Shown: piece by piece, positions 1,873 to 49,948 of the stretch | Layout: each line of letters starts with the position of its first letter | How positions within the stretch are numbered: the first letter of the stretch is position 1 | Assembly: GCF_000374545.1 (NCBI RefSeq) | Contig: NZ_KB894596.1 | Location: 1 to 64,000 of the forward strand | From: Anaeromusa acidaminophila DSM 3853 | GTDB lineage: Bacteria > Bacillota > Negativicutes > Anaeromusales > Anaeromusaceae | Length of the DNA: 64,000 nucleotides | Direction: 5' to 3' | Made by a program: the position numbers and the translations under genes | Notes under the pieces: generated by a model | What the model saw: the letters and a program-made list of their open reading frames with translations, nothing else | What the model was told of the DNA's origin: nothing | The model's database searches: none

Positions 1873-2448
1873 ATGGAGCCGAAAAATCCTGATTTTACCG
1901 CTATATACCAAGAGTTTGCAAAACCAATAGAACGGTATTTGCTTAGGTTTTTGGAGCCTAGAGAAGCTGAAGAAGTTACACAAGAGGTTTTTTTAAAAGT
2001 AAATTCAAGCTTGGCAGACTTTCGGCATGAGGCAAAACTTTCTACGTGGATCTATAAGATTGCTACTAATATGGCGATCGATCGACTAAAAAAGGCTTCT
2101 TATCGCTTTGAGACAAAACAAATTTCGCTGCAAGAATCGGAGCGAAGTGTGCCAATGGAAGCGCAACATGCGAATTCAGTGGAGTCAAATACAATTCATA
2201 AAGAAATGAATCAGTGCATTCGAGGCGTTATTGATAAATTGCCGGAGAACTACCGGATGGTAATCGTATTAAGTGAGTTAGGGGGATTTTCAAATCAAGA
2301 GATTTCCGAGGTGTTGGGATTGAGCGTTGGCGTTGTGAAAACGCATCTTCATCGAGGCAAGACGCGGCTTAAAGAAGAGCTTATAAAGGCCTGTGACTTT
2401 TCTTGGGATGAAAGAAATGAATTTTCCTGTGATCCCAAAAGAGGATGA
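1873..2448 (+). CDS. ECF-type RNA polymerase sigma factor (sigma-70 family)
   Basis: A 191-residue group IV sigma factor. Region 2 spans about residues 10-80 (REAEEVTQEVFLKV and LSTWIYKIATNMAIDRLKK) and region 4 about 115-175 (GGFSNQEISEVLGLSVGVVKTH, a helix-turn-helix that would read the -35 element). The ATG at 1873 is chosen because AAGGAGGTGCCTT lies just before it; the upstream GTG at 1855 would place that ribosome site inside the gene. No anti-sigma gene lies next to it. A terminator separates it from the following AhpD-like and DGC genes, which are plausible but unproven targets. Confidence 0.9.
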   Translation: MEPKNPDFTAIYQEFAKPIERYLLRFLEPREAEEVTQEVFLKVNSSLADFRHEAKLSTWIYKIATNMAIDRLKKASYRFETKQISLQESERSVPMEAQHANSVESNTIHKEMNQCIRGVIDKLPENYRMVIVLSELGGFSNQEISEVLGLSVGVVKTHLHRGKTRLKEELIKACDFSWDERNEFSCDPKRG

Positions 2449-2466
2449 ATTGTTTTCAGTGCTTAT

Positions 2467-2509
2467 AAAATACCGTCTGTCTTATAAAGGCAAGCGGTAT
2501 TTTTTTTGT
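2467..2509 (+). terminator. Rho-independent terminator after the ECF sigma gene
   Basis: A 9-bp perfect stem (AAAATACCG at 2467-2475 with CGGTATTTT at 2495-2503) is followed by a T-run. It separates the sigma factor from the AhpD-like gene. Confidence 0.8.
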
Positions 2510-2566
2510 TCAAGTGTATCTTTTTTGGTCTATTTCTCGTCTATATAAGAAAAGGAGGTGTAATAT

Positions 2567-2836
2567 ATGGCTATTTCTGAACAAGTTCGTTCTTTAATCT
2601 CTATTGGTGTTTCTGTAGGAGTTAATTGCCAGCCTTGTTTGCAGTACCACGTTGCAAAAGCAAAGGAAAACGGAATTGACGAGAGTGACATCCTTGAGGC
2701 GATTGCAGCAGGCAAGGCAGTGCGAAAGGGCGCAGCTTATAAAATGGATGAATATATTAAAGTAATTGCTGGAAAAAGCGCAACAGGAACGGCAGAGCGG
2801 GAATTGCTTGCTAGCCATAGTTGCTGCAAAAGCTAA
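2567..2836 (+). CDS. AhpD-like / carboxymuconolactone decarboxylase-family small protein
   Basis: An 89-residue helical protein with the AhpD-type redox motif NCQPCLQYH (CxxC plus downstream His) near residues 24-32 and the family pattern DILEAIAAGKAVRKGAA. Family members act as thiol-disulfide or peroxidase partners; the Cys pair suggests redox rather than decarboxylase activity. The C-terminus has an extra HSCCKS that could bind metal. The ribosome site GAAAAGGAGGTG precedes the ATG. It leads a tight run of cysteine-rich genes (spacing 31 bp to the DGC protein). The substrate is unknown. Confidence 0.8.
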   Translation: MAISEQVRSLISIGVSVGVNCQPCLQYHVAKAKENGIDESDILEAIAAGKAVRKGAAYKMDEYIKVIAGKSATGTAERELLASHSCCKS

Positions 2837-2867
2837 AGAAACCATTGGATAAGAAAGGGGGATATAG

Positions 2868-3221
2868 ATGTTAGGAGAAGAGAATAATGAGTTGGTTTTG
2901 CTTTTTGCATGCGCGGGAGGCTCTAACGTAGGACAACTGGCAAATGAAGCGGGGAAAGCCTTGACGATGGAAGGCAAAGGAAAGCTATTTTGTTTAGCTG
3001 GAATTGGCGGACAGGTAGAAGGGATTGTAACGGCAGCAAAAGAGGCGAAGCAAGTGATCGCTATTGATGGATGTAGCGTTCGATGTGCAGGAAAAACTCT
3101 TGAAAAAGCCGGAGTTGTGGTCCATCGTCATACTGTGCTGACAGAAGTTGGTTTTGAAAAAAATAGCAACTTATCGGTTAGTGATGAGGAAATTGCAAAG
3201 GCCAAGATGTATATTGAGTAG
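2868..3221 (+). CDS. DGC-domain putative zinc-binding protein (first copy)
   Basis: A 117-residue protein with the cysteine pattern of DGC-domain proteins: FACAGGSNVGQLANEAG at the N-terminus, FCLAGIGG near residue 43, and IDGCSVRCAG (the DGC motif) near residue 67. The family is predicted to bind zinc and its biochemistry is unknown. The start is preceded by GAAAGGGGG. It sits between the AhpD-like gene and a cysteine-rich membrane peptide, so a metal- or thiol-related role is likely but inferred. Confidence 0.78.
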   Translation: MLGEENNELVLLFACAGGSNVGQLANEAGKALTMEGKGKLFCLAGIGGQVEGIVTAAKEAKQVIAIDGCSVRCAGKTLEKAGVVVHRHTVLTEVGFEKNSNLSVSDEEIAKAKMYIE

Positions 3222-3248
3222 TTTGAAGCGAGTAAAGAGGTGAATCGA

Positions 3249-3455
3249 ATGTGGTGGAATTCAGCGAGTTGTCTGAACGGAAGTGAATGGTTGTTTTGTT
3301 TCGCTGTGATGCTGGTGGTCGCAATGTTTTTTATGGGTGTTTGCTTTTTCTTTAGAAAGAGAATGGGTATGCTGTGTTGCTGCGGTTCCAATGCTCGTTC
3401 GCATTGCGGCGGTTTTTCTAAACTAGATACAAAAGACAATGACCAAGGAAAATAG
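3249..3455 (+). CDS. small cysteine-rich single-pass membrane protein, unknown function
   Basis: A 68-residue product. Residues about 12-36 form one strongly hydrophobic segment (LFCFAVMLVVAMFFMGVCFFF), followed by RKR, then a CCC cluster at 43-45 and another Cys at 53. The layout suggests an inner-membrane peptide with a cytosolic Cys cluster able to bind a thiophilic metal or metalloid. The ATG at 3249 fits AAGAGG 8 bases upstream; the GTG at 3240 overlaps that site. I do not recognise a named family. It lies between two DGC genes and is probably cotranscribed with them. Confidence 0.6.
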   Translation: MWWNSASCLNGSEWLFCFAVMLVVAMFFMGVCFFFRKRMGMLCCCGSNARSHCGGFSKLDTKDNDQGK

Positions 3456-3478
3456 TTGGAGCTTAAGGAGGCTGTTGT

Positions 3479-3967
3479 ATGGGCGCTTGCCATGCGGGAA
3501 ATAGCAATGTACGGGTTTGTCCGGAAGGAGCTCGATATGTTGAGAAAAAGATGGAAGGAGAACCCAAGATAGCCATAATGGCCTGTGAGGGAGGCTGCAT
3601 CAAAGGTGAAGTCGCTAGGGTAGCTGCCAATATAGTAGCGTATCAACGAGCCAGAGAAGAAACGATTAGGATTTGTTTAGGAGATGCAATGACAGGGGAG
3701 TCTGGTTTTAGAACTATAATTGAAAGAGCTCCTCGCGTGCTTGTTATTGAAGGCTGCTTCTTGCATTGTGGAACCAAAATGATACAAATGCGTCTTCCAA
3801 GTTTTTCTCCTACCATAGTTGAAGCAACAACTTTGTATGATTTCGACAGAGAAAAATATTTTGAAATACTTGATCTTCCTCGGGAGCAGATTGAAGGTTT
3901 CGCCGTGCAGGTTGCTTCTCATGTTCAAGACGTGCTTGCAGAAAAGAGGCACAGAAGCGATTCTTAA
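3479..3967 (+). CDS. DGC-domain putative zinc-binding protein (second copy)
   Basis: A 162-residue protein related to the gene at 2868 but longer at both ends. Cys positions are conserved in style: GACHAGN, RVCPEGARYVEKK, MACEGGCIKGEVAR, RICLGDAM and the DGC-like IEGCFLHCGTKM. The second half (DFDREKYFEILDLPREQ) may be an added helical region. The ribosome site TTAAGGAGGC precedes the ATG by a normal distance. It is the last gene of the cluster, ended by a strong terminator. The family has no established reaction. Confidence 0.75.
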   Translation: MGACHAGNSNVRVCPEGARYVEKKMEGEPKIAIMACEGGCIKGEVARVAANIVAYQRAREETIRICLGDAMTGESGFRTIIERAPRVLVIEGCFLHCGTKMIQMRLPSFSPTIVEATTLYDFDREKYFEILDLPREQIEGFAVQVASHVQDVLAEKRHRSDS

Positions 3968-3996: not shown

Positions 3997-4040
3997 AAAG
4001 CGATCTCTTGCGGCAGTGGGCAAGAGATCGCTTTGCTTTT
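3997..4040 (+). terminator. strong Rho-independent terminator
   Basis: A 15-bp perfect stem (3997-4011 with 4020-4034, core GCGATCTCTTGC) and an 8-nt loop, followed by TTTGCTTTTT. It ends the AhpD-like/DGC cluster and faces the convergent arsM gene. Confidence 0.85.
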
Positions 4041-4132: not shown

Positions 4133-4942
4133 TTATTTTGAAGAAGGTTTACTTGCGCGGATAAAAGCGCTTGCAATCGAATTTTCAAGATTTGCTTGTT
4201 CATCTGTAGTTAGTCCTGAATATATATCACTGGCGATTTCGGAAAACTCATAGGTTTGTGTAATTTCAACGTCAACTTTTTCGAAGCCTGCTTTGAGTAG
4301 TTTGTTTTGGTACTCTGAAATTGTCATAGCGCCGGAAATACAACCGGCCCAAGCTAAGAGATTTTTTCTTATCTTCTCGGGTAATTCGCGAAGAATTACA
4401 ATGTCAGAAACGGCAAAACGTCCTTCGGGCTTCAATACTCGGAATGCTTCTTTGAGGACCTTGTCTTTATCGCCAGAAAGATTGATTACACAATTGGATA
4501 TTATTACATCAACCGTGCTGTTTGGGAGGGGGATTTCTTCAATATGACCTTTGAGAAATTCTGCATTTGTAAGACCAGATAACTCTCGGTTCTTTTCTGC
4601 AACTTCCAGCATTTCATCGGTCATATCAAGGCCGTACGCTTTTCCGGTTGGCCCTACTCGTTTAGCAGAAAGTAATACATCGAGACCGGCTCCGCTGCCT
4701 AAATCTAGCACTGTTTCACCTTCATGAAGTTCAGTGAGAGCAGTTGGGTTGCCACATCCAAACGAAGAAGCGAGTATATCTTCGGGCAATTCGCTTACTT
4801 CTAAATGTGAATATAAGTTGCTTGTTATTTGACTTGTACCGCCGGTGCCACCACAACAAGAAGAACTATTGGCGCCGCAGCCAGTTCTGCTTTGAATGGC
4901 CTCTGCATATTTTTTCTTAACCGTTTGCCTGATCTTATTCAT
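4133..4942 (-). CDS. arsM: arsenite S-adenosylmethionine methyltransferase ArsM
   Basis: Cytosolic enzyme that methylates As(III) with SAM. The SAM site is [18 protein letters not shown], then [10 protein letters not shown]. The three conserved arsenic-binding cysteines are visible as [16 protein letters not shown] and [10 protein letters not shown], so activity is expected. The N-terminus also has a Cys-rich [11 protein letters not shown]. The ATG at 4942 is chosen over the longer frame because AAAGGAGGGTCAAGTA precedes it. The start overlaps the 3' end of the marR gene by 8 bases, so both are cotranscribed and probably arsenite-controlled. Confidence 0.92.
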
Positions 4943-5435
4943 TACTTGACCCTCCTTTAACTTGTCTAGAGATTGAGTCTTCGATCTTGGTATCAAACAT
5001 GGTGCTTTCCGTAATCGCTTTTAATAAATGCGGGAGAGCTTCATAGACTACGCTTCTAGTTTCGCTAGGAATTGAGTCGATAATTTTCGAGTAATATGCC
5101 TCCAGACTTTCATTGATTGAAGTAAATACGTTACGACCCTTGTCTGTTAATTCGATGGTTACATATCGGCGATCTTCAGGATTTTCCTTTCGATGTACCA
5201 AGTTGCCTTTAACCATGCTCTCAAGAGTGCGACTTACAGTGCTTCGGTCAAGATTCAGCAATTTTGCGCATTCGTTTGCTGCCATTTCTCCAGCGTTGCC
5301 TATTTCAATTAAGGCGTGACATTGTGTAAGTGTGACTCCACAGCAAGAAGTTTCTTTTTTTTGCAGATATCCTTGTTTTCTTAATGACACTCTTATGATG
5401 TCTCTAAGTAACATAGCTCCTTGTTTCGAATCCAT
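4935..5435 (-). CDS. MarR-family regulator, probable arsenic-responsive repressor of arsM
   Basis: A 166-residue winged helix-turn-helix protein. The recognition region is [24 protein letters not shown] and the wing is [19 protein letters not shown]. An unusual [11 protein letters not shown] puts Cys at 31, 32 and 39 just before the DNA-binding domain, a good geometry for three-coordinate As(III). The ribosome site GAAAGGAGC precedes the ATG. It is the first gene of a two-gene operon with arsM, and an imperfect palindrome covers its promoter, suggesting autoregulation. The arsenic-sensing role is inferred from context and cysteines. Confidence 0.85.
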
Positions 5436-8152: not shown

Positions 8153-8536
8153 ATGCTAGAAGTTCTAAAAGCCCTCGGTGACGAGAGTCGACTGCGGATT
8201 GTCCATCTTTTATTGCAGGGGCCGTTGTGCGTATGTGAGCTTGAATATGTACTGGCAATGAGCCAAACGAATGTATCGAGGCACTTGGCGAAATTAAAGC
8301 AGGCCAAAATCGTACAGAACGTTAAACAAGGGCAATGGGTTAATTACCAGATGGATGAAACTTTTCTAGCCAATGAAAGCGCGCTAATCGAATATTTAAA
8401 AGAAAAATTTCTTAGCAATGCGTCATTTCAAGAAGATTTGTCTTCCTTATTGAATCATCAAGTGGAGTGGGACAATTGTTTGAGTCCCTCCAGGAAGTAT
8501 TTACAAGAAAAATCAAATCATAAAGGAGCTGTCTAA
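8153..8536 (+). CDS. arsR: ArsR-family metalloregulator, first copy (arsenite-type)
   Basis: A 127-residue SmtB/ArsR winged-helix repressor. The arsenic-site signature LCVCELE has Cys at 26 and 28 in the first part of the DNA-binding domain, and MSQTNVSRHLAKLKQAKIV is the recognition helix. Arsenite binding to these cysteines would release DNA. It is preceded by AAAAGGAGGTTCAA and heads the operon arsR-arsD-arsA with a 2-bp gap to arsD. A close paralogue lies at 13903. Confidence 0.93.
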   Translation: MLEVLKALGDESRLRIVHLLLQGPLCVCELEYVLAMSQTNVSRHLAKLKQAKIVQNVKQGQWVNYQMDETFLANESALIEYLKEKFLSNASFQEDLSSLLNHQVEWDNCLSPSRKYLQEKSNHKGAV

Positions 8537-8538
8537 GC

Positions 8539-8910
8539 ATGAAAAAAATTACTTTTTTTGAGCCTGCTATGTGTTGTTCCACCGGTGTTTGCGGTCCGAG
8601 CGTCAATCCGGAGTTGCTGCGGGTGTCAACTATGCTGGACTTGTTGGCTAAAAAAGGCGTAACCGTAGAACGGTTCAACCTTTCCACGGTTCCTCAAGCT
8701 TTTGTGGAGAACAAAGAAATCAGTCAATTGTTACAGGAAAAAGGGGTAGAAGCATTGCCTGCCATTTATGTAGATGGCGAGCTTAAGCAAACCGGCGGCT
8801 ATCCAGCAACAGCGGAAGTGGCAGCTTGGTTTGGCCTGCAGGAAAGCGATCTGCAACCGGCGAAAAAGACGTCGTCATCTTGCTGCTGCGGTGACGGAGG
8901 ATGTTGTTAA
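8539..8910 (+). CDS. arsD: ArsD arsenite metallochaperone
   Basis: A 123-residue protein that delivers As(III) to ArsA and can act as a weak repressor. The thioredoxin-like core starts MKKITFFEPAMCCSTGVCGPSV, with the chaperone cysteines at 12, 13 and 18 all present. The tail is Cys-rich (SSCCCGDGGCC), as in ArsD proteins with extra vicinal pairs. It is translationally coupled: its stop TAA shares one base with the arsA ATG. Confidence 0.95.
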   Translation: MKKITFFEPAMCCSTGVCGPSVNPELLRVSTMLDLLAKKGVTVERFNLSTVPQAFVENKEISQLLQEKGVEALPAIYVDGELKQTGGYPATAEVAAWFGLQESDLQPAKKTSSSCCCGDGGCC

Positions 8911-10676
8911 TGAAGAGCTTTCCTTTATATCAGGCCAACGTAGCAACGGGGCTCAAGTATTTGTTCTTTACCGGCAAAGGCGGCGTAGGTAAGACGTCAA
9001 CCGCTTGCGCTACGGCGGTATCCTTAGCTGACGCTGGCAAAAAGGTGCTGCTGGTTAGCACCGATCCGGCGTCCAACCTACAGGATGTATTTGGACGTGA
9101 TTTGGATGGCAAGGGAGTTGCTATTGACGAAGTACCTGGCTTGGTAGTAGCCAACTTGAATCCGGAAGAAGCGGCCCGTGAGTATCGGGAATCTGTCATT
9201 GGACCTTATCGGGGTAAATTGCCGGACTCGGTGCTTAAAAACATGGAAGAGCAGCTGTCTGGATCTTGTACCGTCGAAATTGCCGCCTTTAATGAGTTTT
9301 CTCGCTTCATTACTGATGAGGCATTGCAGCAAAAGTACGATCATATTTTGTTTGACACGGCGCCTACGGGACATACGCTGCGGATGCTGCAGCTTCCTTC
9401 GGCTTGGAGTTCCTTTATCAGCGAGAGCACACACGGAGCCTCCTGCTTGGGTCAGTTGGCCGGCTTAGAAGAGCAAAAGGATATGTATAAGCAGGCGGTT
9501 GCTACGTTGGCAGACGGCAAATTGACTGCGCTAGTGCTGGTCACCAGGCCGGAAGAGTCGCCCCTTAAAGAGGCGGCGCGTTCATCCATGGAACTGCGTG
9601 ATTTGGGTATTAAAAACCAATTGCTGGTGGTAAATGGCTTAGTTGCCGATGATATGGTGGCGGATGAACTGGCGCAAGCTATGCAAAGCAAGCAACAAGA
9701 GGCTTTAACGTCCATGCCGGAAGAATTGGCAGGCATTCCTCCTTACAGCATTCCTCTGCGTGCTTATAATGTAACGGGTCTGGAGAACATTCGCGCGATG
9801 CTCAAGCCAGAGCAGCCTATGACAGCGAGTGAAGAGGCGGTAGAACGTTTGCATAATTTGCCGGCTTTACGTACGCTGGTGGACGAATTGCATAAAACTG
9901 GTAAAAAAGTTATTTTTACCATGGGCAAAGGCGGTGTCGGCAAAACAACGCTGGCAGCGGCTATCGCACTAGGCTTGGCCCAAAAAGGAGCCAAGGTGCA
10001 GCTTACGACAACTGATCCGGCGGCGCATTTGGAGTTTGTCTTAAGCAAAGCGAAAGGCATTACCCTCAGTCATATTGATGAAGAAAAAGAGCTGGATGCA
10101 TATCGCCAGGAAGTATTAGCGCGTGCGGCGGAAACCATGGGTGGCGACGATCTGGCTTATATCGAGGAAGACCTTCGTTCTCCGTGTACGCAGGAAATTG
10201 CCGTTTTTCGCGCTTTTGCCGAAATTGTGGCGAAAGCAGGCGACGAAGTGGTTGTTATTGATACGGCTCCCACCGGTCATACGCTGTTGCTCTTGGACGC
10301 GACGCAAAGCTATCATCATGAAGTTGAGCGCACGCAAGGGCAAGAAACGCCGCTATCAGTGCAGCAGTTGCTGCCGCGGCTGCGCAACGAAGCGGAAACG
10401 GAAGTGGTTATCGTTACGCTTCCCGAAGCGACGCCGGTTTTTGAAGCGGAGCGTTTATCCGATGACCTGGCGCGCGCCGGTATTCATAACAACTGGTGGA
10501 TTGTGAATGCCAGCTTCCGGGCGACCAATACGACGCATCCCTTGCTGCGGGCCAGAGCGTTATCAGAAGCCGCTTGGATTGAGCGGGTAGCGGCGCGCTC
10601 GAAGGGGCATTATGCGGTTATTCCTTGGGAAAAACGAGAACTAAAAGATGAAGTACTGTTGGAGTTGCTCCAATAA
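8910..10676 (+). CDS. arsA: ArsA arsenite-translocating ATPase
   Basis: A 588-residue duplicated ATPase that powers arsenite export by a membrane permease. Two P-loops are visible (FTGKGGVGKTS near residue 22 and FTMGKGGVGKTT near 335) and two copies of the switch motif DTAPTGHT. Candidate metalloid cysteines lie in SGSCTVEIAAF, GASCLGQLAG and SPCTQEIAVF. ATG 8910 is used because GGAGG ends 9 bases upstream. No arsB or acr3 permease follows or occurs elsewhere in the window, so the partner must be encoded elsewhere. Confidence 0.95.
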   Translation: MKSFPLYQANVATGLKYLFFTGKGGVGKTSTACATAVSLADAGKKVLLVSTDPASNLQDVFGRDLDGKGVAIDEVPGLVVANLNPEEAAREYRESVIGPYRGKLPDSVLKNMEEQLSGSCTVEIAAFNEFSRFITDEALQQKYDHILFDTAPTGHTLRMLQLPSAWSSFISESTHGASCLGQLAGLEEQKDMYKQAVATLADGKLTALVLVTRPEESPLKEAARSSMELRDLGIKNQLLVVNGLVADDMVADELAQAMQSKQQEALTSMPEELAGIPPYSIPLRAYNVTGLENIRAMLKPEQPMTASEEAVERLHNLPALRTLVDELHKTGKKVIFTMGKGGVGKTTLAAAIALGLAQKGAKVQLTTTDPAAHLEFVLSKAKGITLSHIDEEKELDAYRQEVLARAAETMGGDDLAYIEEDLRSPCTQEIAVFRAFAEIVAKAGDEVVVIDTAPTGHTLLLLDATQSYHHEVERTQGQETPLSVQQLLPRLRNEAETEVVIVTLPEATPVFEAERLSDDLARAGIHNNWWIVNASFRATNTTHPLLRARALSEAAWIERVAARSKGHYAVIPWEKRELKDEVLLELLQ

Positions 10677-12672: not shown

Positions 12673-12720
12673 AAACTATAAAGAAGGATGTTCGGGAGTA
12701 GTTTGAGGAGGGCTTCTGAC

Positions 12721-13818
12721 ATGTGTAAAAAAGGGTATATTCGACTAGATACGGGAGAAGAAACAATTTTTTTACCGTTACGGTCAGATGTTAAGAAAAT
12801 TTATATTGAAGTGACAACTAGCTGCAATTTTAATTGCATTACCTGCATTCGCCATTCTTGGAGTGACGAGGAAGCCTCCTTGTCTTGGCATGACTTTTTA
12901 GAGGTAGTAACGCAACTCAAGGAATTTCCAGAGCTTCAAAGTGTTCACTTGGGAGGGTTTGGAGAACCTATGATACATCCCAATATTTCAGATATGATTC
13001 GTCTACTTCATGCTCAAGGATACCAAACCGAAATGATTAGTAATGGGTCGCTATTGACGCCGGCTATGTGCGAGAACCTTTTAGACGCAGGTTTGGACTG
13101 GCTATTTGTATCGTTAGATGGATCTGATTCGGGAAGTTATGCGGCAATGAGGCCAGGGGCAGACTATACAGAAGTAGTAAGTAACTTAGTGTGGTTGCAA
13201 AATGAAAAGAAAAAGCGTCGCCAGTTAACACCTTTCTTAGGTGTAGAATTCGTCGCGACAAAAAGTAATTTCTCCCATTTGCCTCAACTTCGACGGGTGT
13301 GCGATAAATTAGGCGTGAGCCGATTGGTGGTAACTCATGTCTTGCCCTATCATGAAAGCATGAAAGATGAAATTCTCTATGATCAACAACGAACTTGGGA
13401 AGAATTTGGTTCCGAAGCTCCTCAATTGTCGGTTAAAACAGGATTGCCTTTAGAATTACGTACAGAGAGGAATTGCCGTTTTGTTGAAGGGAAATCCTTC
13501 GTAATTACTGCCGCAGGAAAAGTGGCTCCCTGTTATGCTTTTATGCATGAGTATGATTGCTATGTTCTGGGACGAAAAAAAAGGATGAAGCCATATCATA
13601 TTGGCGATATCCGTGAAAATACGCTAGCAGAGCTTTGGCAGAAAGAAGAGTATGTGCGATTTCGGTGGGCGGTGCGAAATTCTCTTTTTCCTTCCTGCGT
13701 AGACTGCCTCCAAGCGGATGGATGTGTCTATTTGCTAGATAACCAAGGAGACTGCTGGGGGAATGAACCTTCCTGCGGCGACTGCTTATGGGCAAGAAAG
13801 CTCATCGTATGTCCATAG
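12721..13818 (+). CDS. radical SAM/SPASM protein, resembling tungsten-cofactor oxidoreductase maturase
   Basis: A 365-residue radical SAM enzyme. The cluster motif SCNFNCITC gives CxxxCxxC at residues 35, 39 and 42; LGGFGEP is the SAM-binding GGE-type motif. The C-terminal SPASM region has many cysteines (NCRFVEGKSF, VAPCYAF, FPSCVDCLQADGC, GDCWGNEPSCGDCLWA) for auxiliary clusters. The GDCWGN...SCGDCLWA end recalls the W-dependent aldehyde oxidoreductase maturase family, but this is from memory. No aldehyde ferredoxin oxidoreductase gene is in the window. ATG 12721 follows GAGGAGGG. Confidence 0.72.
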   Translation: MCKKGYIRLDTGEETIFLPLRSDVKKIYIEVTTSCNFNCITCIRHSWSDEEASLSWHDFLEVVTQLKEFPELQSVHLGGFGEPMIHPNISDMIRLLHAQGYQTEMISNGSLLTPAMCENLLDAGLDWLFVSLDGSDSGSYAAMRPGADYTEVVSNLVWLQNEKKKRRQLTPFLGVEFVATKSNFSHLPQLRRVCDKLGVSRLVVTHVLPYHESMKDEILYDQQRTWEEFGSEAPQLSVKTGLPLELRTERNCRFVEGKSFVITAAGKVAPCYAFMHEYDCYVLGRKKRMKPYHIGDIRENTLAELWQKEEYVRFRWAVRNSLFPSCVDCLQADGCVYLLDNQGDCWGNEPSCGDCLWARKLIVCP

Positions 13819-13860: not shown

Positions 13861-13902
13861 GTAGTTAGATTCCATTATGATATGAATTCCAAGGAGAGTA
13901 AT

Positions 13903-14277
13903 ATGATTGAAATAATGAAAGCCTTAGCCGACGAAAACCGGCTAAGGATAGTTCATCTGTTGTTACAAGAACAACTTTGTGTTTGTGAGCTTGAATATGT
14001 TTTGCAGATGAGCCAGACGAATGTATCTCGACACTTAGCAAAGTTGAAGAATGCCGGGATTGTTCAAAGCTTTAAGCAGGCCCAATGGATCAACTATAAG
14101 ATTGCTCCAGCATTTCTAACCGAGGAGAAACTATTGGCTTCTTATTTGCAGGAAAGACTTGCTCAAGAACGTATTTGCCAAGGGGATCTGGAAGCGCTTA
14201 AGCGTCATCAAAGTGAATGGCAAGGCTGCATTGCACCGTCACGAAAAATATTGCAGCAAAAACGAGAAAATAGTTAA
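13903..14277 (+). CDS. ArsR-family metalloregulator, second copy
   Basis: A 124-residue ArsR repressor closely similar to the one at 8153 through most of its length. It has the same Cys pair in LCVCELEYV (26, 28) and almost the same recognition helix MSQTNVSRHLAKLK. ATG 13903 is chosen because AAGGAGAG precedes it by a normal gap. No resistance gene follows; the next gene, 143 bp away, is a glutathione peroxidase. It could be a duplicate acting on the radical SAM/CoADR region or a trans regulator of the arsRDA promoter. Confidence 0.9.
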   Translation: MIEIMKALADENRLRIVHLLLQEQLCVCELEYVLQMSQTNVSRHLAKLKNAGIVQSFKQAQWINYKIAPAFLTEEKLLASYLQERLAQERICQGDLEALKRHQSEWQGCIAPSRKILQQKRENS

Positions 14278-47943: not shown

Positions 47944-48927
47944 ATGAAAACAAATGCATCAGAGATTATCCGCTTAGGGGAACAGGTATTGACTGGGCGT
48001 CAATTAAGCGGCGAAGAAGCGTTAGCTTTGACCCGTATTGATGTGACCGATATTCCTCTTTTGGCGGCGTATGCCCATAAAGTTCGACAAGCGTTTGGCG
48101 GGAACCATGTGGATATGTGCGGCGTTTTGAGCGCGCGGACGGGGCAGTGTTCGGAAGACTGCAAGTTTTGTTCACAGTCGATTCATTACAGTACTCAAGT
48201 AGCGCCGCATGCGTTGTTGCCAATCGCTCAATTGGTTGAAGAAGCAAAGGCTGCGGAACAAGCAGGGGCCAAACGCATTAGTTTAGTTACCAGCGGCAAG
48301 GGCATGGAAGGGGATGCTGATTTTGAGGCCATTATATTACGCATCCAAGCGATTGCTGCAGAGACGAAGCTGCAAGTGTGCGCTAATCTAGGAACGTTGA
48401 ATCGGCAGCAAGCAATGCGGCTTCGCGATGCGGGCGTACGGCGCTATGCGCATAATTTGGAAACAAGCGTACGGTTTTATCCAGATATATGTACGACGCA
48501 TCCTTATCAAGAGCGGGCGGCTACACTGGCTGCGGCGAAAGAAGCGGGGCTGGAACTTTGCTCTGGAGGTATCATTGGGTTGGGCGAGGATTGGCAGGAT
48601 CGCATCGACTTAGCGCTGGCTTTACGTGAGTTTGCAGTCCAGTCAGTGCCTATTAATATCTTGAATCCCATTCCGGGAACGCCGCTAAGTGAACAGAAAC
48701 CCTTGCCGGTATTAGAAATTTTACACACGATTGCGTTATTTCGTTTGCTGTTGCCAGAGCCGATTGTGCGTCCTGCAGGAGGGCGCGAAATCAATTTGCG
48801 AGATATGCAGGGAGCAGCGATGTTGGCAGGAGCCAATGGGTTGATTGTGGGGCATTATTTGACTTTTTCCGGGCGCAATACGGCTGCTGATTTTCAAATG
48901 GCGGCTGATGCGCAATTGAAGCCATGA
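47944..48927 (+). CDS. bioB: biotin synthase-like radical SAM enzyme, divergent paralogue
   Basis: A 327-residue BioB-family protein, which would insert sulfur into dethiobiotin. The radical SAM cluster CSEDCKFC has Cys 69, 73 and 76. For the auxiliary cluster, two of three Cys ligands are present (146 in LQVCANLG and 206 in ELCSGGIIGLGE) with the Arg of AGGREINLR. The ligand matching E. coli Cys97 is Ser113 (KRISLVTSG), and the Asn before HN is Ala (YAHNLETS). These are unusual and may mean altered chemistry. It is preceded by two BirA-type sites and is followed by a conventional BioB 25 bp downstream. Confidence 0.85.
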   Translation: MKTNASEIIRLGEQVLTGRQLSGEEALALTRIDVTDIPLLAAYAHKVRQAFGGNHVDMCGVLSARTGQCSEDCKFCSQSIHYSTQVAPHALLPIAQLVEEAKAAEQAGAKRISLVTSGKGMEGDADFEAIILRIQAIAAETKLQVCANLGTLNRQQAMRLRDAGVRRYAHNLETSVRFYPDICTTHPYQERAATLAAAKEAGLELCSGGIIGLGEDWQDRIDLALALREFAVQSVPINILNPIPGTPLSEQKPLPVLEILHTIALFRLLLPEPIVRPAGGREINLRDMQGAAMLAGANGLIVGHYLTFSGRNTAADFQMAADAQLKP

Positions 48928-48952: not shown

Positions 48953-49948
48953 ATGAGTTATGATTTGATTTTTTCACTGGGAAAGAAAGTGTTGGCTGGC
49001 GAGGAACTGACTTTCGAAGAGGCCTTGTCCTTGAGTCAAATCGAGGAAGAAGATATTCCTTTGCTGTTAGCCGTAGCTAATAAAGTGCGTGAACAATTTA
49101 CGGGCAAAGCCGTGGATACTTGTGAAATCGTAAATGCCCGTTCCGGCAACTGCTCCGAAGACTGCAAATTTTGTGCGCAGTCAGCGCATCATGAAGTAAA
49201 GTTTGAAGCTTATCCTTTAATGAAAGAAGAAGATATTGTGGCTGCGGCTAAAAAAGCCGAACAAGACGGCGCCTACCGATTTTGTATTGTGACGGCCGGC
49301 TGTGGCATGGACGGCGATAAGGATTTTGAGAAAATATTAGGAGCCATTCGGCGTATTGGCAAGGAAACCAAATTGAATCGTTGCTGTTCTTTGGGGATCC
49401 TAGAGGCGGAACATGTTGCCGCCTTGAAAGAAGCGGGGATTACGCGCTACCACCACAACCTGGAAGCTAGCGAAAGCTATTTTTCTGAAATTTGTTCTAC
49501 TCATACTTATGAAGAGCGCATAGAGACCATCAAGCGAGTAAAGGAAGCGGGTCTGCAGAGCTGTTCCGGAGGAATTATTGGCATGGGCGAGTCTTGGAGG
49601 CAGAGGGTGGAACTTGCCTTTGCTCTAAAAGAGCTGGATGTGGATTCGGTGCCTGTCAATGTATTGAATGCCGTGCCGGGAACCGCTTTGGCGCAGCAAA
49701 AAAGACTGCAGCCACTCGAAATTTTACAAGCTTTTGCCATTTTTCGTATGGTGCTGCCTAAAAAAATCATCCGTTATGCAGGTGGTCGGGAACACAATCT
49801 AGGAGAGCTGGTGCCGCTAGGATTCTTGTCCGGTATTAACGGTATGCTGTTGGGCAATTACTTAACTACGTCCGGCCGCGGTCCGGAGCAAGACTTAAAA
49901 ACGGTAAACGGCTTGGGCCTTAGCCCGTTGTCGTTGGAAGAACGCTGA
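48953..49948 (+). CDS. bioB: biotin synthase BioB (conventional cysteine set)
   Basis: A 331-residue radical SAM enzyme. Cluster motif CSEDCKFCAQSAHH (Cys 67, 71, 74). All auxiliary-cluster cysteines of BioB are present: 111 (YRFCIVTAG), 144 or 145 (NRCCSLG) and 204 (LQSCSGGIIGMGE), plus the Arg in YAGGREHNLG. Extra cysteines at 117 and 144/145 are notable, since anaerobe-type BioBs can hold a different auxiliary cluster. ATG 48953 follows AAGAGGTGC. It is the second gene of the BirA-controlled operon; no other bio genes are in the window. Confidence 0.92.
   Translation: MSYDLIFSLGKKVLAGEELTFEEALSLSQIEEEDIPLLLAVANKVREQFTGKAVDTCEIVNARSGNCSEDCKFCAQSAHHEVKFEAYPLMKEEDIVAAAKKAEQDGAYRFCIVTAGCGMDGDKDFEKILGAIRRIGKETKLNRCCSLGILEAEHVAALKEAGITRYHHNLEASESYFSEICSTHTYEERIETIKRVKEAGLQSCSGGIIGMGESWRQRVELAFALKELDVDSVPVNVLNAVPGTALAQQKRLQPLEILQAFAIFRMVLPKKIIRYAGGREHNLGELVPLGFLSGINGMLLGNYLTTSGRGPEQDLKTVNGLGLSPLSLEER

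Follow-up and report, generated by a model that had tools for sequence, protein, structure and literature searches.

The question raised by this locus is what an ECF sigma factor, encoded with no anti-sigma gene beside it, might sense and which genes it controls. It was found in the first 64,000 nucleotides of contig NZ_KB894596.1 of Anaeromusa acidaminophila DSM 3853 (here called the window, meaning the whole stretch that was analysed), and it is followed by four small genes that the original prediction described as encoding an AhpD-like protein, two DGC proteins and, between these, a Cys-rich membrane peptide. All of them are real open reading frames, and Pfam confirms the domains of the sigma factor, of the AhpD-like (CMD) protein and of both DGC proteins (Table 1). 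The interpretation that DGC stands for diguanylate cyclase was rejected as a mere name clash, PF08859 being unrelated. The best explanation for the whole, which we favour by a modest degree, is an arsenic-sensing sigma factor that acts as a single protein and induces a set of thiol proteins.

Table 1. Features of the sigma factor locus and of the neighbouring arsenic genes, in window coordinates.
Feature	Position	Strand	Evidence and remarks
ECF sigma factor gene	1873..2448	+	Pfam Sigma70_r2 and Sigma70_r4_2; 191 aa, short C-terminal tail
Codon of C115	2215..2217	+	Invariant in 20/20; lies in the helix that opens region 4 (103-121, AlphaFold)
Tail C174-DFSWDERNEFS-C186	2392..2430	+	C174 and C186 invariant in 20/20
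Terminator-like hairpin with U tract	2467..2503	+	-16.8 kcal/mol, z -5.9 vs shuffles
Predicted sigma-dependent promoter	2515..2543	+	-35 TGTATC 2515-2520, -10 CGTCTA 2538-2543
AhpD-like CMD gene	2567..2836	+	PF02627 42.9 bits, gathering score 23; 89 aa
DGC1 gene	2868..3221	+	PF08859 115.2 bits, gathering score 27; 117 aa
Single-span membrane peptide gene, CCC cluster	3240 (GTG) or 3249 (ATG)..3455	+	Sequence; 71 aa
DGC2 gene	3479..3967	+	PF08859 48.9 bits, gathering score 27; 162 aa
Bidirectional terminator between DGC2 and convergent arsM	3997..4034		15-pair stem, T tracts on both strands; -26.5 kcal/mol, z -6.4
arsM, arsenite methyltransferase	4136..4942	-	NF008823 343 bits, cut-off 263
MarR-family regulator, CC-x6-C motif	4938..5435	-	PF01047
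arsR, arsD, arsA	8153..10676 (arsR 8153, arsD 8539, arsA 8901)	+	Open reading frames and sequence

The four small genes are separated by gaps of only 31, 18 and 23 bases, an operon-like arrangement. The first hairpin ends the sigma transcript and parts the sigma gene from the CMD-DGC operon, and the bidirectional terminator ends the operon ahead of the convergent arsM. The membrane peptide matches no Pfam family, and the later of its two possible starts (ATG) is better placed relative to the ribosome-binding site; analogous small membrane peptides lie 3' of the same promoter at other loci.

The original prediction proposed looking for a shared -35/-10 pair upstream of the CMD gene, and it is indeed there, with the operon promoter consensus TGTATCYTTT-N13-CGTCTA. 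Upstream of CMD it reads TGTATC[CT]TTT or a near variant, a spacer, and CGTCTA or CGTCTT; it is the sole match within the window (0.04 expected), and the same pair precedes CMD at the Negativicutes loci in which CMD comes after sigma. Taking all homologous loci together, the bipartite promoter lies beside the sigma gene at 23 of 24, upstream of CMD, DGC or other first genes, and in the locus that lacks it (L103) the sigma gene is broken, a recombinase-like gene lying within it. A promoter matrix was trained on CMD sites alone, the sites before other first genes being left out of training, and in leave-one-group-out scoring it gave values of 19-33. This matrix recognised the sites before DGC2 in Desulfosporosinus (30.1), before the first gene of the Nitrospirota (29.1) and Deltaproteobacterium (28.8) operons, before DGC1 at L099 (31.4), before a C_GCAxxG_C_C gene at L098 (28.2) and before membrane peptides (27.0, 29.5 and 32.3). 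A looser scan of 360 kb of control DNA returned two matches scoring 21, so the two weak sites among the 23 (L032, 19.0; L037, 18.6) are not significant alone.

The strict form of the pattern was also run over 26 genomes. It marked the sigma locus in 15 of the 17 sigma-bearing genomes, the two misses being small variants, while the 9 sigma-less genomes contained two unrelated-looking matches. A reversed control pattern gave 11 matches across all 26 genomes against 25 for the true pattern, four of the 25 being of the chance-like form GTATC[GA]TTTA; in the host genome, searched by pattern alone, the one further match, at C6, likewise looks like chance. That the operon has its own promoter, present at 23 of the 24 related loci, marks it as a likely target of the sigma factor. 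Judging from the position and co-conservation of the promoter that it is predicted to recognise, the sigma factor very probably regulates the CMD-DGC operon. Two further sites of this type lie away from the usual position. In Sporomusa silvacetica (L029 1519, minus strand) a match scoring 27.8 stands several hundred bases before an MFS-like transporter, a possible further target, and at L097 12900-13542 (G302) second and third CMD copies lie away from sigma, the upstream copy with a sigma-type promoter scoring 23.7.

The next matter is how far this arrangement is conserved. When 380 genomes of the class were searched for DGC2, 10 gave close matches, and a search of the same 380 with the sigma alignment found the sigma factor in 17 (above 230 bits, or as a split gene in G314), all others scoring 126 bits or less. 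The sigma factor is present in all ten genomes with a close DGC2, as against 17 of 380 overall, an association that goes beyond chance. A scan of named genomes adds Sporomusa, Desulfosporosinus, Anaeromyxobacter oryzisoli, Desulfobulbaceae, a Deltaproteobacterium and Nitrospirota (the Sporomusa malonica locus, L030, being the same contig as G297), and in nearly all of these sigma adjoins. The core, that is, sigma beside CMD and/or DGC2, is found in Negativicutes, Desulfosporosinus, Anaeromyxobacter, Desulfobacterota and Nitrospirota. At most Negativicutes loci CMD lies directly 3' of sigma; elsewhere the first operon gene may be DGC1 (L099) or the C_GCAxxG_C_C gene (L098), and the Nitrospirota and Deltaproteobacterium operons have a membrane peptide and then DGC2.

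The idea that the gene order itself is conserved survives only for this core, because the full four-gene order was met outside the window in just one close relative (L020) and is confined to the genus. Similarly, the twin DGC genes are real in the window and are not a conserved trait: a second species of the genus (L021) lacks DGC1 in this operon, and so do most other loci. DGC1 is an optional operon member, and operon content varies around a fixed regulator. The DGC2-like proteins recovered by a wider profile in Desulfobacterota and in two Myxococcota genomes occur mostly without sigma, so the DGC family extends beyond the regulon. No DGC2 was found in the sets of plasmids and viral contigs searched, and those sets thus give no sign of a mobile carrier.

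The sigma factor itself has a conserved feature on which the original prediction was silent. An alignment of 20 orthologues (29-88% identity to the window protein) contains only 13 invariant columns, and three of these are C115, C174 and C186. Region 4 ends near residues 166-170 and the protein stops about 20 residues later; in the AlphaFold model this tail is a beta-hairpin (strands 174-178 and 184-188, pLDDT about 75) with C174 and C186 one on each strand. In ArsR-type sensors, As(III) is commonly bound by three thiolates. Two or all three of the cysteines might just as well form a disulfide or bind zinc. The claim that the gene stands without an anti-sigma partner was borne out, as Pfam reveals no anti-sigma gene in the adjoining open reading frames, and none was recognised at the other loci read.

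The surroundings of the operon, also passed over in the original prediction, are those of an arsenic island. Besides the genes of Table 1, the island downstream of the operon includes an amidohydrolase, a TauE permease and a CoA-disulfide-reductase-like/rhodanese gene, and homologues of arsR, arsD and arsA recur at other sigma loci. When only arsM, arsA, arsD, ACR3 and ArsP are counted (ACR3, ArsP and arsM identities having been checked against curated models), 17 of the 24 sigma loci have an ars gene within 9 kb, compared with none of 20 control segments of 18 kb from the same genomes (Fisher p = 5e-7, a value that overstates independence since the sigma loci are related). The loci nevertheless belong to several families and to more than one phylum. 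At the other seven loci no ars gene was seen in that range. Contig ends truncate some of these, but not every Nitrospirota or Desulfobacterota locus, and the signal is thus possibly broader than arsenic. The conserved promoter and operon, the invariant cysteines and the arsenic neighbourhood are computed observations. The proposal of a dedicated sensing or handling system is supported for a thiophilic metal or metalloid, with arsenic, given this neighbourhood, as the best candidate, and its other branch, thiol oxidation, becomes a rival. It is likely that arsenic or methylarsenic is the signal.

Several regulators of the island also carry cysteine motifs. Two ArsR-type regulators with 'LCVCELEYVL' Cys motifs are present (8153-8536 and 13882-14277), and MarR genes resembling that at 4938-5435, with its CC-x6-C motif, occur near many sigma loci; the window MarR protein could be a further arsenic sensor.

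The mechanism that we propose can be described as follows. The ECF sigma factor would be a one-component regulator that needs no anti-sigma factor, and the thiols of C115, C174 and C186 would form its predicted on-board site, with trivalent arsenic, inorganic or methylated, as the most likely ligand. Occupancy of this site would alter the ability of the sigma factor to work with RNA polymerase, and the active holoenzyme would read the promoter consensus and transcribe CMD, DGC1, the membrane peptide and DGC2. The thiol proteins so produced would hold, relay or reduce protein-bound arsenicals in the neighbourhood of ArsM and the island's efflux genes. That the sigma factor itself does the sensing is, taken as a separate claim, evenly balanced in our view.

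This mechanism has to be weighed against other readings of the same cysteines and neighbours. According to one, C174 and C186 form a disulfide under oxidative or disulfide stress, and the sigma factor then induces an AhpD-like disulfide reductase and a DGC repair set, the system being held in arsenic islands because arsenic causes thiol stress. The AhpD-type CxxCxxxH site of CMD agrees with this, as do the ties of the CMD proteins of ECF41 operons to oxidative stress (PMC3426412). We nevertheless consider it unlikely, given that a third invariant Cys lies outside the tail, that the association with arsenic efflux and methylation genes is dense and specific, that the hosts are anaerobic and that the related SigZ precedes arsM. 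It is also conceivable, if slightly less probable still, that the signal is another thiophilic one (zinc, copper, antimony, mercury, or sulfane/selenium) and that DGC binds that metal or an Fe-S cluster. The sigma loci without ars genes and the cysteine desulfurase or Sec-lyase gene present at two loci speak for such a signal, and so does the Pfam DGC entry, which assigns a likely zinc site from conserved cysteines; the neighbours, however, are arsenic-specific (ACR3, arsM, arsD, ArsP).

Alternatively, the membrane peptide could be a membrane-anchored anti-sigma factor and the sigma factor a conventional, indirectly controlled ECF protein. A small single-span peptide, often with a coiled-coil or SHOCT end, does belong to the regulon at many loci, but it is encoded downstream of the sigma-dependent promoter, is short for the usual anti-sigma domain, is poorly conserved in sequence and goes unrecognised near some sigma genes, and the three invariant Cys are kept in the sigma factor; this makes the anti-sigma role very unlikely. 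Finally, arsenic islands gather many genes, and an IS256 element lies just upstream (389-1567), yet it is hardly credible that the sigma genes merely travel in these islands and control unrelated genes, given that in several phyla the promoter stands next to sigma in front of CMD, DGC1, DGC2, membrane peptide and C_GCAxxG_C_C genes.

The statement that no described pathway has this composition fits the limited literature search made here, whereas the regulatory plan proposed for the sigma factor has precedents in ECF41, CorE and OrbS. ECF41 proteins are anti-sigma-less, have a C-terminal regulator and control a near-single-target regulon with a CMD target gene bearing CxxC (PMC3426412). The window system shares with them the lack of an anti-sigma factor, the CMD target, the conserved promoter and the CGTC of the -10 element; it differs in that ECF41 has a large C-terminal domain, for which the 191-aa window sigma has no comparable extension, and a -35 element reading TGTCACA, where the loci examined here have TGTATC or something close to it. 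In CorE, a Cys-rich C-terminus directly senses metal and copper activates (PMC3107203). CorE/CorE2 (former ECF44, now ECF238) are likewise anti-sigma-less, but the CorE tail has 38 residues and six Cys, four of them invariant, whereas the window sigma has two Cys in the tail and one in region 4. In OrbS (ECF243) a short tail closely follows region 4.2; its Cys detect Fe(II) and serve as an on-board anti-sigma, iron being inhibitory (PMC9023288). A short Cys tail soon after region 4 is common to OrbS and the window sigma; OrbS, however, has four clustered tail Cys and controls siderophore genes. All that is said of ECF287 and ECF288 is that their C-terminus is rich in Cys (PMC8999054), and an overlap with the window sigma is conceivable. 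As regards the target genes, NCBIfam contains a fused ArsM-AhpD family (NF041537, a selenoprotein) in which an arsenite methyltransferase is joined with an AhpD domain; the window instead has arsM and CMD as two genes, with no sign of selenocysteine.

A related family is SigZ (TIGR02959 / PRK09637), a sigma factor reportedly known since 1997. The window sigma scores 120.8 bits with the SigZ model (119.6 in the genome search), below the cut-off of 168.65, and a tree splits the two groups on one branch with 99/100 support. Within the class, 10 genomes encode SigZ proteins that pass the curated cut-off. These proteins belong to a related ECF lineage and share with the window group a Cys at the start of region 4, a Cys tail and a cognate-like downstream promoter, although their tail reads CC-x-x-E-x-D-R-x-G-N instead of C-x-F-x-x-DERN-x-x-x-C and their promoter has TGCG in place of TGTA. 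The promoter found 3' of SigZ genes is TGCG[TA]CC-N-CGTCTTAAT or a near variant, and the gene after it is DUF2703 at eight loci, arsM at two (L153, L154, L155, L156, L158, L159, L160, L161, L162 and L168 for these ten) and a permease at one. A DUF2703 gene is arsenate-induced in a Rhodococcus ars cluster (PMC6514093). The promoters before DUF2703 or arsM suggest that SigZ has to do with arsenic, a link for which no paper was found in the open-access literature searched.

A broader and more tentative idea is that the window sigma and SigZ form one clan that binds trivalent arsenic through an on-board thiol site. Known arsenic regulators are mostly ArsR-type repressors, with a few two-component systems, and we know of no sigma factor that senses arsenic directly; if the clan reading is true, these would be the first, and they would control an undescribed arsenic-handling route in which CMD, DGC, DUF2703 and C_GCAxxG_C_C serve as the thiol proteins. 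Placing the arsenic site within the sigma factor would be a regulatory solution of another kind, and such a protein could go straight into a biosensor. The promoter provides a direct route to regulon lists. The results also give a lead on what SigZ does, and on the DGC, DUF2703 and C_GCAxxG_C_C families, about whose roles the literature searched says little or nothing.

With respect to the operon proteins, the CMD of the window has its CxxCxxxH site as CQPCLQYH, and its C-terminus contains Cys; most homologues have the same motif, and a C-terminal tail with 2-6 Cys is present in 20 of 20 aligned. DGC1 is a four-Cys version of DGC (Cys near 15, 42, 69 and 73), and an alignment of 15 DGC2 proteins reveals six conserved Cys (14, 36, 40, 66, 93 and 97). 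In the AlphaFold model of DGC2 (pLDDT 85), Cys 36, 40, 66, 93 and 97 lie at the ends of three consecutive strands, which is the usual position of the active edge in Rossmann-like folds, and these five residues may therefore form one shared site. Fold comparisons that bear on a phosphatase or arsenate reductase (LMW-PTP/ArsC) fold for DGC2 gave weak, generic Rossmann-like matches (best Foldseek E 2e-3, TM 0.42; VIA Z < 8, with ties among many unrelated Rossmann-like folds), and we make no claim for such a fold; a sequence search returned no solved structure of a DGC protein. The specific chemistry suggested above for DGC and CMD, namely binding, relay or reduction of thiol-bound arsenicals, is doubtful in its detail.

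Other genes of the window can be mentioned briefly. The contig edge upstream of sigma (1-1567) holds a fragment of an IS3-like transposase and, at 389-1567, an intact gene for an IS256-family transposase. Within the arsenic island, 12688-13818 encodes a radical-SAM maturase of a tungsten-cofactor oxidoreductase (TIGR04317, 385 bits, cut-off 380), and a TIGR04317 maturase gene lies directly upstream of sigma in three other genomes (L031, 6653-7741; L026; L095). Farther along the window, two biotin-synthase-like radical-SAM genes stand in tandem at 47944-48927 and 48953-49948.
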